Assembly: GCF_008327825.1 (NCBI RefSeq)
Contig: NZ_AP019827.1
Coordinates: forward strand, 1,426,001 to 1,490,000
DNA from: Leptotrichia shahii
GTDB taxonomy: Bacteria; Fusobacteriota; Fusobacteriia; Fusobacteriales; Leptotrichiaceae
Direction of reading: 5' to 3'
DNA length: 64,000 nucleotides
Below, piece by piece: positions 29,286 to 41,216 of this stretch. Made by a program: the position numbers and the translations under genes. The notes under the pieces are model-generated. The model was given only the letters and a program-made list of their open reading frames with translations, searched no databases and was not told the DNA's origin. Each line of letters opens with the position of its first letter. The stretch's first letter is position 1.

Positions 29286-29425
29286 AAAAAAAAACTCTTC
29301 CTATAAGGAAGAGAATTAAAATTCTTATCCTTATCTTTGCATCTTTTATGCCGGATTTAGCACCTTGTATTTACAGGTTGCTGGATACTTAAAACGGGCC
29401 GTTCCCTAATATCTCTCTTGATAAG
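29286..29425 (-). promoter_or_regulatory. SAM-I (S-box) riboswitch with terminator upstream of metK
   Basis: Read on the minus strand, the aptamer runs from CTTATCAAGAGAG (29425) to GATAAG (29330), which pair as P1. Between them are conserved S-box parts: AGGGAACGGCCC, CCAGCAACC, AAGGTGCTAAATCC and the GATGCAAAGATAAG end. It is followed by the terminator stem CTCTTCC/GGAAGAG (29295-29313) with nine Ts (29286-29294). By family knowledge, SAM binding stabilises P1 and lets the terminator form. A -10-like TTTAATAT lies just upstream, about 29430-29437. Confidence 0.93.
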
Positions 29426-29559
29426 TTTATATTAAACTGTTTTATAAAATTTTAAATTTGATTTTCAAATAACTTTATTATAAAATTAGTATATAATATT
29501 TTCTTTAAAATGTCAATATATAAAAAATAATTTTTTATTGCATTTTATTTAATTATATT

Positions 29560-38563: not shown

Positions 38564-39757
38564 ATGGTTATAAAACCTAGATTAAAAGGTGGTTTAGCAC
38601 TTACAAATCATCCAATTGGAGCAAAGGAATTTGTAAAGAGACAAATTGATTATGTAAAATCGCAAGATAAGTATGAAGGTCCAAAAAAAGTACTAATTAT
38701 TGGTTCTTCTTCTGGATATGGACTTGCAACAAGAATTTCCCTTGCTTTTGGTGCTGGAGCTGAAACTATCGGAGTGGCATTTGAAAAAGGTATCGAAGGG
38801 AAAAGAACTGGATCTGCTGGCTGGTGGAATACAATTGCATTTGATGAAGCTGCTGAAAAAGAAGGACTAAAATATAAAAATTTCATTGGTGATGCTTTTT
38901 CTTTTGAAATGAAAGATGATGTAATAAAATTCATCAAGGAAGAATTTGGCGGAAAAATTGACTTATTAATTTACAGCTTAGCAAGTGCTGTCAGAACTGA
39001 TCCTATTGATGGAGTTACTTACCGTTCTGCCCTAAAATCTACAACAAGAGATATTACAGGACCAACTATTAACTTTGAAAAAGAAATTATGGAAGATACA
39101 ACAATGGGTGTTGCAACTCCAGAAGAAATTAAAAGTACTGTAAAAGTTATGGGTGGAGAAGACTGGAAATTATGGATTGAAGCGCTTGATAAAGGCGGAG
39201 TTCTTTCTGAAGGCTTTAAAACAGTAGCTTACTCGTATTTAGGACCAAAAGTGACTTATGGAATTTATAAGGAAGGTACAATTGGAGCTGCAAAAAGAGA
39301 TTTGGAACATACTTCTGATATTTTGAATGACTTTTTAAAGAAAAGATATAACGGAGAGGCTTATGTTTCATTAAGTAAAGCGTTAATGACAAAAGCAAGT
39401 GCAGTTATCCCTATTTTCCCATTATACGCAGCATTACTTTATAAAGTAATGAAGGAAAAAGGTATTCATGAAGGTACAATTGAACAAAAACATAGATTAT
39501 TAACTAAAATGGTTTATGGAAATGAGCCAGTAATTGACGAAGAAAGGAGATTACGTCCAGATAACTGGGAAATGCGTGAAGATGTTCAAGCTGAAGTAGA
39601 AGCACTTTGGGATAAAGTTACTCCAGAAAACTTTAAAGAAATAAGTGATTACGCTGGAGCAAGGGAAGAATTCATGCAATTAAATGGATTTGACTTTGAC
39701 AACGTAGATTACGATGCTGATCTTGATTTAGAAGAATTGGCAAAATTAAGACCTTAA
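38564..39757 (+). CDS. fabV: Trans-2-enoyl-CoA/ACP reductase FabV
   Basis: FabV reduces the enoyl double bond in the last step of the fatty acid elongation cycle and is the triclosan-tolerant alternative to FabI. Its 397 aa carry the nucleotide-binding IGSSSGYGLATRI, the WWNT region (GSAGWWNTIAFDEAA), DLLIYSLASAVRTDP and the FabV active site Y-x8-K (YKEGTIGAAK, about residues 226-235). The ATG follows AGGAGG. It is a single gene bounded by a strong terminator; other fab genes are not in the window. Confidence 0.96.
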   Translation: MVIKPRLKGGLALTNHPIGAKEFVKRQIDYVKSQDKYEGPKKVLIIGSSSGYGLATRISLAFGAGAETIGVAFEKGIEGKRTGSAGWWNTIAFDEAAEKEGLKYKNFIGDAFSFEMKDDVIKFIKEEFGGKIDLLIYSLASAVRTDPIDGVTYRSALKSTTRDITGPTINFEKEIMEDTTMGVATPEEIKSTVKVMGGEDWKLWIEALDKGGVLSEGFKTVAYSYLGPKVTYGIYKEGTIGAAKRDLEHTSDILNDFLKKRYNGEAYVSLSKALMTKASAVIPIFPLYAALLYKVMKEKGIHEGTIEQKHRLLTKMVYGNEPVIDEERRLRPDNWEMREDVQAEVEALWDKVTPENFKEISDYAGAREEFMQLNGFDFDNVDYDADLDLEELAKLRP

Positions 39758-39795
39758 TTTTAGAGATAATCAGGAAATAAAATAATAAAAAAATT

Positions 39796-39844
39796 AGACT
39801 ATCTTAATTTAGAATAAAAATTATTCTTTTGATAGTCTTTTTTT
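39796..39844. terminator. Bidirectional terminator after fabV
   Basis: AGACTATC and GATAGTCT (39796-39803, 39831-39838) enclose an inner palindrome AGAATAA/TTATTCT. The plus strand ends in TTTTTTT; the minus strand ends in AATTTTTTT, so it can also stop transcripts coming from the small ORF on the minus strand. Confidence 0.8.
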
Positions 39845-39889
39845 ATACTCCGCAGGAGTGAAGAATCAAAGGTGAAATTCTTTTAAAGT

Positions 39890-39955
39890 TTACTTTCTTG
39901 TTATTCTGTAAATAAAGTACAGTAAAACAATCAACACTAATAAAAACTCCAGCAT
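39890..39955 (-). CDS. Hydrophobic micro-peptide (candidate type I toxin-like)
   Basis: An ORF of 21 codons starts at ATG 39955 and ends with TAA at 39890. The peptide begins MLEFLLVLIVLLYFIY and ends RITRK: one membrane helix with a basic tail, the form seen in type I toxins such as Ibs or TisB. The ribosome site is weak (GCGGG). Its 5' region (39969-39994) is complementary in two blocks to a putative small RNA encoded just upstream. I cannot exclude a chance ORF, since short hydrophobic frames are easy to find in AT-rich DNA. Confidence 0.4.
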   Translation of the reverse strand: MLEFLLVLIVLLYFIYRITRK

Positions 39956-39968
39956 CTGACTACCCGCT

Positions 39969-40067
39969 TAAATTGTGATTTTATGAGTTAGCGAAACTCA
40001 TAAATTATTACAAAAAAGACTAGAAAAATCTAGTCTTTCCATCGCTATTTTTTTTAATCACAATTTA
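39969..40067. repeat. Two-block inverted repeat around a terminator hairpin
   Basis: On the plus strand TAAATTGTGATT (39969-39980), eight bases and TAGCGA (39989-39994) are mirrored exactly by TCGCTA (40042-40047), eight bases and AATCACAATTTA (40056-40067). The 8-base gaps have equal length but do not pair. The hairpin at 40015-40038 lies inside. The structure could be a nested leader fold or an RNA-RNA target pair. Confidence 0.65.
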
Positions 40068-40091
40068 TACCCTACGAGGTTTTCCTCTTAG
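40012..40091 (-). ncRNA. Putative small RNA of about 80 nt with terminator
   Basis: A promoter at 40098-40126 would start a minus-strand transcript near 40091. It contains a small hairpin GAGGAAAACCTC (40077-40088), the block that pairs with the micro-peptide leader, and ends in the 10-bp stem AAAGACTAGA/TCTAGTCTTT (40015-40038) followed by six Ts. The terminator stem is the strongest evidence. It could instead be the 3' terminator of the immunity gene or an attenuator in a longer leader. Confidence 0.5.
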
Positions 40092-40097
40092 TAAATA

Positions 40098-40126
40098 TAT
40101 TAAACCATAAAATTTTTAAATTGCAA
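40098..40126 (-). promoter_or_regulatory. Promoter of the putative small RNA
   Basis: On the minus strand TTGCAA (40121-40126), 17 bases and TTAATA (40098-40103) form a plausible sigma-70 promoter 14 bases after the stop of the immunity gene. Confidence 0.45.
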
Positions 40127-40139
40127 TAAAGATTTTTTA

Positions 40140-40577
40140 TTAAATCTCCACCACAATTTCACTTTTTAAATCGAATTCCATCCCCAAAAACTTTTTCCAG
40201 CTTTCCAAAACTTTTTTATACTCTTCAAACTTACAGCTCCACAGCGGATATTCCTCACAAATCCCAAAAATCGTATGCTCAAATTCTACTCTATTTTTAT
40301 TAATTTTATGTTGAAAAGCCTGTCCATCCCAAATAGTTTCCTGCAATTTTTCATTTTCAACTTGTTCCAATTGGGGCAACAGAATATTAATTATTTCCGT
40401 ATCTGGAAAATCTTCCATTATTCCAGTTATTAGATATTTTGTATACTCTGCTTTCTTTTTTTCTAAATATCCACTTTTTTTATTATTTTTTGCTATTTCC
40501 CTTTCAGAAAATTTCACTTCTGGAAATGCAGTCAATCCAAAATCTTCATCGTCGTAATAGCCAAATTTTATAATCAT
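40140..40577 (-). CDS. Putative immunity protein for the EndoU nuclease
   Basis: A 145-aa acidic cytoplasmic protein directly downstream of the EndoU toxin gene (27-base gap) with a strong GGAAAGGAG ribosome site. It has no signal peptide. Residues such as MIIKFGYYDDEDFGLTAFPE at the start and FGICEEYPLWSCKFEEYKKV near the C-terminus give it a distinct but unnamed family appearance. Polymorphic toxins are normally followed by a cognate immunity gene in this order, so the role is inferred from position, size and cytoplasmic location. A lone function unrelated to the toxin cannot be excluded. Confidence 0.65.
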   Translation of the reverse strand: MIIKFGYYDDEDFGLTAFPEVKFSEREIAKNNKKSGYLEKKKAEYTKYLITGIMEDFPDTEIINILLPQLEQVENEKLQETIWDGQAFQHKINKNRVEFEHTIFGICEEYPLWSCKFEEYKKVLESWKKFLGMEFDLKSEIVVEI

Positions 40578-40604: not shown

Positions 40605-41216
40605 TTAACGATTTTCATAAACTGGATAGGCTGTTATTCTTGGACTTTTGTAACCACGAATTAAAACTCCGCTTTTGCTGATTCCCTGCCACATATTACT
40701 ATCTCTGCCCTTTAAATCTTTTCTATTTTCCCAGGCTGAATTTATTTCATCAATAATTCTGGCTTCGTCCCAATTTTCTGGAAACATCGTATTTACACCG
40801 CCATTAGAAGTTTTTGCCTGCCAAGTTCCATCTTTTTTCTTTACTTCAATGCTTGCCCGATATACTCCATTTTTAGCTGGACTTCCAATCTTTTTTACAA
40901 TTCTGACATCTCCACGTAAAAGCGAATGTCCTCCCGTAACTTTTCCTTGCGAATTTTCATCCCCGCCAATTACATGTTCATAATCAATTTTATATTTTTT
41001 ATCATTTTGATATTGTTTTTCATTGCTATTTTTCTTATTGTTATTTTTTTTGTTTTCCCATTTAGCAGATTTATTACTTTCTTTATTTTGTGCAACAAAT
41101 CCTTTTGAAAAATTATTTCTCGTTTTATTACTATTTCTTTCAAAATACATTTTTCCAAGTCCAAATAGAACAATAACAATCAGCAGCAATATTTTTGTTA
41201 ATCTATTTTTATTCAT
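40605..41216 (-). CDS. Secreted or membrane-anchored bacterial EndoU-type nuclease
   Basis: A 203-aa protein with an N-terminal hydrophobic anchor or signal (residues 8-22), a disordered Asn/Lys linker (25-75) and a C-terminal EndoU-type domain. Key residues are His81 (EHVIGGD), His97 (VTGGHSLLRGD) and the final RITAYPVYEN (Thr195, Tyr197), with MFPENWDEARIIDEI and WQGISKSGVLIRGY between them. Bacterial EndoU domains are RNA-cleaving toxins of contact-dependent and polymorphic systems. Here the domain is not fused to a large delivery protein. It is cotranscribed with the small gene downstream, probably its immunity gene. The ribosome site is AAAAGGAGA. Confidence 0.82.
   Translation of the reverse strand: MNKNRLTKILLLIVIVLFGLGKMYFERNSNKTRNNFSKGFVAQNKESNKSAKWENKKNNNKKNSNEKQYQNDKKYKIDYEHVIGGDENSQGKVTGGHSLLRGDVRIVKKIGSPAKNGVYRASIEVKKKDGTWQAKTSNGGVNTMFPENWDEARIIDEINSAWENRKDLKGRDSNMWQGISKSGVLIRGYKSPRITAYPVYENR

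Follow-up and report, generated by a model that had tools for sequence, protein, structure and literature searches.

The 64,000-nucleotide stretch of Leptotrichia shahii DNA analysed here as a whole (the window; contig NZ_AP019827.1, positions 1,426,001 to 1,490,000) contains on its minus strand, at positions 39890-40126, a compact unit in which a putative small RNA is followed by an open reading frame (ORF) for a small hydrophobic peptide. It very probably represents a toxin-antitoxin pair of a type I-like kind, whose two genes are arranged in tandem on one strand. The computed evidence consists of a two-site complementarity between the RNA and the leader of the peptide mRNA, the maintenance of this complementarity in relatives despite near-complete change of the sequences involved, the occurrence of pairs that match in trans, the conservation of the peptide frame, and a pairing between the Shine-Dalgarno (SD) sequence and the tail of the mRNA that exceeds chance expectation.

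RNA-leader pairing and partner exchange

The small RNA carries two pairing blocks, i.e., the 12-nt block 1 TAAATTGTGATT (40056-40067, (-)) and the 6-nt block 2 TAGCGA (40042-40047, (-)), which are exact reverse complements of, respectively, positions 39969-39980 (-), immediately 5' of the ribosome-binding site and beside the SD sequence, and positions 39989-39994 in the leader, and the 8-base gap between the blocks is identical on the RNA and leader sides. This arrangement had been claimed in an earlier reading of the window (the original prediction), and could be confirmed to the base. A point absent from that prediction is that the leader of the peptide mRNA begins with a stem-loop (TTATGAGTT-TCGCT-AACTCATAA, 39981-40003, (-)) that has a perfect 9-bp stem, and that block 2 falls on its loop. 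When the window was scanned for 12- and 6-base complementary blocks with equal gaps at 30-120 nt from each other, this site alone was found, whereas the same scan on 200 first-order Markov shuffles of the window gave a mean of 0.03 matches.

Use of the 215-base unit as a DNA query against relatives yielded dozens of matches, many of which are complete units of the same anatomy. A model of the region from the RNA to the SD sequence (R1), constructed from 13 seed sequences, detected 61 loci in 19 of 33 Leptotrichiaceae genomes, with up to 9 model matches per genome, and 0 matches in 65 other Fusobacteriota genomes; the window RNA was matched at E 8.6e-11, the window copy being itself one of the seeds. 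A further model (R2), which covers the toxin half, added units, including divergent ones in genome G032. Named genomes with matches include Leptotrichia hongkongensis and other Leptotrichiaceae (a pattern scan gave 3 real Leptotrichiaceae matches). Matches in Bacilli, at E 0.05 or worse, were rejected; those that were read resemble leaders of rpsF-type ribosomal protein genes or chance. The order within the unit is promoter, RNA of ~75 nt, terminator, extended -10, leader, SD sequence, and a hydrophobic peptide of 18-21 residues, in tandem on the same strand in all extracted units, and the RNA terminator is the most conserved part of the family. The RNA promoters match the TTGACA/TATAAT family consensus at a mean of 10.9 of 12 positions and the toxin promoters, which include a TGn element, at a mean of 8.9 of 12. 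The extended -10 consensus of the latter (TGTTATAAT) is located directly after the terminator, and the TG precedes the toxin -10 in 40 of the 44 scored copies.

For the pairing test, each RNA was taken without its terminator and each leader without its SD sequence, and duplexes were computed between every RNA and both its own leader and those of the other units. These cognate and non-cognate duplex energies took the place of covarying-column counts, because MAFFT lost the register of the blocks, and the pairing tests are independent of any structure-fitted alignment. Cognate duplexes had a mean energy of -19.1 kcal/mol as compared to -8.5 kcal/mol (standard deviation 3.3) for non-cognate ones, and the observed sum was reached in 0 of 100,000 partner permutations, a count that is no strict p-value, as related loci share ancestry and the counts are not independent. 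The block sequences are nearly unrelated between units, with complementarity kept, and the 39 clean pairs represent 28 mutually exclusive specificity classes. Moreover, a 5' stem-loop with at least 3 loop bases paired to the RNA was present in 45 of the 48 leaders scored, and the duplex of the window unit (-19.6 kcal/mol) ranks first among 61 RNAs. Chance complementarity might be considered in an AT-rich genome, but the single site in 64 kb against 0.03 expected, the number of specificity classes and the permutation outcome leave it a negligible probability. An additional contact between the RNA hairpin CCCTAAGGG and the mRNA hairpin CCCTTAGGG was considered and rejected, the loops not co-varying by eye in divergent units; the latter, a 3' hairpin of the mRNA, is read as a short terminator.

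Four toxins mismatch their adjacent RNA, and each of these has a strong partner elsewhere in its own genome. In G002, two units that are 1.8 kb apart are reciprocally swapped (-25.1 and -21.6 kcal/mol, versus -7.0 and -7.5 for the adjacent RNAs), the toxin of G008 matches the RNA one further upstream than the adjacent one, and that of G021 matches an upstream orphan RNA. In G026 and G019, where insertions separate the two halves by ~1.4-1.5 kb, RNA and toxin still match. Since a toxin that mismatches its adjacent RNA thus has its matching RNA elsewhere in the genome, action in trans is favoured over a cis-acting attenuator. The latter had been left beside a type I-like unit as an option by the original prediction, and would consist of a single transcript, read through from the upstream promoter, in which the blocks pair in cis to control terminator read-through or translation. 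The location of both halves on one strand, the terminator between them, and the nesting of the blocks around that terminator in the manner of an intramolecular stem agree with such an attenuator. However, a conserved extended -10 follows the terminator, RNAs without a toxin half are retained together with their promoter and terminator, and intramolecular attenuation would hardly be workable in the swapped and split units. Swapped and separated partners therefore speak against cis attenuation as a general explanation, and it is regarded as very unlikely. The type I-like option, on the other hand, is strongly supported by RNA-leader complementarity and a peptide frame that are kept over dozens of loci.

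Some of the rearranged loci deserve a description of their own. The swap region G002:C1:566000-585500 represents a natural recombination event between toxin-antitoxin units. At G019:C1:2222400-2226400, an insertion sequence-like insertion with a transposase-like end is located within the terminator, and the toxin -10 and the RNA pairing blocks are kept. The orphan RNAs G011:C63 and G007:C1:548348 are apparently at the same site, where the toxin half has been lost and the blocks were kept; these blocks are complementary to toxin leaders in G001 and G009 (-22 to -23 kcal/mol), and the orphans are possible anti-addiction RNAs.

Peptide, one-sided loss and predicted mode of action

Intact peptides of the family are hydrophobic, comprise 18-21 residues, and have a conserved frame (examples are MNSDELIRLLVIMYIVYRLTR and MVDFIAIFILFVIIYYSLNR). 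They can be divided into two groups, one ending in YRLTR or YSLNR, and the other of type MRILFLFLVFFLLIQKILY. A comparison of relatives shows an excess of synonymous changes, with ratios akin to nonsynonymous over synonymous rates (dN/dS-like) of 0.20-0.37, and on this sequence evidence the peptide is under purifying selection in the relatives. Peptide frame and block complementarity, on the conservation of which the original prediction had been made to depend, are thus both conserved. A Pfam and NCBIfam scan of the peptides of at least 20 residues, with E up to 10, gave no toxin family match.

A matching RNA is present in the genome for 47 of 48 intact toxins. Conversely, the RNA is kept beside a broken or lost toxin at 16 loci, through loss of the start codon, nonsense mutation, frameshift, or promoter deletion, and the 6 toxin halves that lack an RNA are all broken (Fisher p 0.003, in a table of intact and broken toxins that was classified by hand). 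Such one-sided decay, with the RNA kept and the toxin lost, is the pattern expected of a toxin and its antidote, and the peptide would be toxic as judged from its type and this pattern of loss. The constraint on the peptide that is apparent from the dN/dS-like values could also suit an antisense-regulated small membrane protein, i.e., a non-toxic regulator of a membrane complex that is kept low by the RNA, and small hydrophobic regulators of ~20 residues exist. Nevertheless, the high copy number with exclusive RNA specificities, the tandem arrays (in G008 and G010, one unit per ~300 bases), the presence of a copy in a prophage, the sporadic presence of the family, and the loss of toxin halves with retention of the RNA are better accommodated by a selfish or addiction module than by a housekeeping regulator, and a benign role of the peptide is considered unlikely. 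The prophage copy (L144:1618-1746, (-)) lies on a prophage contig from IMG/VR, close to genes that were named terminase-like and portal-like from their translations, and is the same as the copy at G026:C1:352670 within the model region.

For a type I-like toxin-antitoxin unit, the following mode of action is predicted, in which transcription of both RNAs, the translation block, and toxicity are inferred from sequence. A short RNA would be transcribed from a strong promoter up to its own terminator, and a weaker, extended -10 promoter at that terminator would generate the mRNA of a membrane peptide with a single helix, which would be harmful in excess. Block 2 of the RNA (6-8 nt) would contact the loop of the mRNA 5' stem-loop, and a duplex of 11-17 nt would zip up next to the SD sequence and across part of it, thereby blocking ribosome loading; the duplex would probably be exposed to RNase III. 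Besides this pairing in trans, the 3' tail of the full-length mRNA would also cover the SD sequence, possibly as a second lock that could be opened by 3' trimming. The tail motif that pairs with the SD sequence is TTTCACCTC or CCTC, and the pairing probability is 0.83 as compared to 0.55 with shuffled tails, being higher in 37 of 38 units; the sole exception is the window copy, in which the SD/tail pairing is lost (P 0.25). For many type I toxins, full-length mRNAs have been described that are kept locked by intramolecular structure and become active on processing (PMC11228461).

Anatomy and condition of the window copy

The promoter, the segment of ~80 nt with its 10-bp terminator hairpin, and the 21-codon ORF of the original prediction were all recovered. 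The small-RNA promoter TTGCAA-16 nt-TTTAAT (40099-40126, (-)) was assigned by sequence reading and family comparison, and has 9 of 12 consensus matches. It precedes the putative antitoxin RNA of ~80 nt (40012-40091, (-)), which comprises a 5' hairpin GAGG-AAAA-CCTC, the two pairing blocks, and an intrinsic terminator (40012-40038, (-)) in which a stem of 10 bp (40038-40029 with 40024-40015) is followed by a T-run. Folding of this RNA yielded -22.7 kcal/mol (z = -5.6), and 0 of 200 shuffles folded equally well. A simple promoter and terminator scan of the window did not list the small-RNA promoter and terminator; their assignment is based on sequence reading, the fold, and family comparison. 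The peptide mRNA would be transcribed from an extended -10 promoter, TGTAATAAT (40004-40012, (-)), which is located after the terminator and overlaps the end of the T-run. Downstream of the leader, the putative toxin ORF of 21 codons (39890-39955, (-)) is preceded by the SD sequence AAGCGGG and encodes the hydrophobic peptide MLEFLLVLIVLLYFIYRITRK. It is followed by a 3' tail (39847-39877, (-)) that contains the conserved TTTCACC, an anti-SD motif in relatives, and a short hairpin ACTCC-TGC-GGAGT, and by a strong stem GACTATC...GATAGTC with T-runs on both strands (39787-39837). The latter is a bidirectional terminator, beyond which a convergent gene is located (38564-39757, (+)), and is likely to form the 3' end of the peptide mRNA in the window copy.

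Several points weigh against the toxin-antitoxin reading, in addition to the shared ancestry of the loci and the classification by hand mentioned above. A pattern search for a partner RNA of the intact toxin G032:C124, which is encoded on a short contig in a draft genome of 87% completeness, was unsuccessful, and plasmid and phage records searched with one unit as the query gave no match. The window copy is itself weak on the SD sequence (GCGGG) and lacks a close peptide homologue, and the toxin half of the unit is gone in the sister genome G003. Because of these three features, the window copy may be silent.

The window copy could even be a decaying relic that is devoid of present function, which would be compatible with a real toxin-antitoxin family. 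Its SD sequence GCGGG has an energy of -9.9 kcal/mol versus -13.0 kcal/mol for a typical copy, its RNA -10 TTTAAT is poorer than the TATAAT of the family, and it has lost the SD/tail pairing. In the sister genome, the RNA is kept with 99% identity over 93 bases, follows the same immunity gene, and has the -10 TATAAT. Other copies in the source genome G000 are broken, comprising an orphan RNA at 599616 and toxin remnants at 611672 and 903671; one complete unit with a good SD sequence is located at 585459. By contrast, the window copy has an intact ORF and extended -10, its stem-loop and its two pairing blocks are likewise undamaged, and its duplex takes first rank, so that complete decay is a possible, albeit somewhat doubtful, state of this copy. 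On sequence grounds it is an atypical and probably weakened member of the family, attenuated or on its way out even though both pairing blocks are perfect, which was beyond the view of the original prediction.

Upstream of the unit, the gene at 40605-41216 (-) encodes an EndoU_bacteria nuclease (PF14436, 4.7e-26), in agreement with its earlier label, and the N-terminus of this nuclease carries a hydrophobic segment. The gene is followed by a 145-amino-acid ORF that ends at 40140 (-), has no confident Pfam match, and presumably is the immunity gene. A link of the unit to this pair was rejected, as units of the family are encountered in many contexts, including prophage and tandem arrays; the suggestion that its position behind the immunity gene is coincidental fits this distribution. 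An Rfam scan of the window returned no model that matches the unit, and its sole match was an S-adenosylmethionine (SAM) riboswitch (RF00162, 50.8 bits, 29328-29427, (-)).

Relation to known systems and significance

The small hydrophobic peptide and an RNA with computed complementarity to the toxin mRNA are those of a type I system, and the promoter and terminator signals of each half, the swaps, and the orphan RNAs may reflect separate transcripts. The enterobacterial pairs tisB/istR-1, shoB/ohsC, zor/orz, dinQ/agrB, and timP/timR likewise combine a small hydrophobic peptide with a short antisense RNA that is encoded adjacent to, rather than opposite, the toxin gene and pairs with the 5' untranslated region. 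Those pairs are divergent (PMC4147584, PMC7667032), whereas the Leptotrichiaceae units are in tandem on one strand. Moreover, the RNAs of those pairs bind away from the ribosome-binding site, while the Leptotrichiaceae RNA pairs beside and partly over the SD sequence and with the 5' loop, and no sequence relation to any of the five pairs was found. The par locus of pAD1 (fst, RNA I/RNA II) of the Fst/Ldr group is alike in that two pairing segments, DRa and DRb, block ribosome binding on the mRNA of a hydrophobic peptide (PMC4147584). In contrast to the tandem Leptotrichiaceae units, the par transcripts converge on a shared terminator, and the Leptotrichiaceae peptides have no Pfam toxin-family match. 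The ibs/sib and ldr/rdl systems are also multicopy and encode very small peptides, with three ldr repeats in tandem, but their antitoxin RNAs, Sib and Rdl, are encoded on the strand opposite to the toxin gene and overlap this gene or its leader (PMC4147584), unlike the RNA described here. Type III systems (toxIN), which have been reported in Fusobacteria (PMC4147584), share the gene order, with an antitoxin RNA and then a terminator ahead of the toxin gene, all on one strand. The Leptotrichiaceae units differ from them in an RNA of ~75 nt that lacks tandem repeats and pairs with the mRNA, and in a putative toxin that is a membrane peptide of 20 residues instead of an RNase. Finally, full-length hok and timP mRNAs are inactive by intramolecular pairing, and the same is predicted here with the anti-SD motif of the 3' tail as the lock. 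The family would work like a type I system; on the basis of gene order, peptide profile, and Rfam, it belongs to none of the named families.

According to a 2025 paper, type I systems had so far been described only in Proteobacteria, Firmicutes, and Tenericutes, to which the paper adds the first cyanobacterial system (PMC12390103). A partial literature search revealed no paper that joins type I toxin-antitoxin units with Leptotrichia, and the family is likely to be novel. It is probable that it constitutes a new type I family, which may be the first in Fusobacteriota. In this reading, the genes are in tandem, with the end of the antitoxin terminator merging into the toxin promoter, and specificity diversifies fast and recombines modularly through exchange of RNA and toxin halves among units, with trans complementarity being kept, while orphan antitoxins may protect against other copies. 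If true, type I units would be extended to another phylum, and a tandem same-strand gene order, which is missed by opposite-strand searches, would be added to their known arrangements. The 28 mutually exclusive specificities within one small family would represent a natural set of orthogonal RNA pairs, with possible use as genetic tools for oral bacteria, for which few are available, and the family as a whole would provide a record of how RNA pairs change partners without death of the host.
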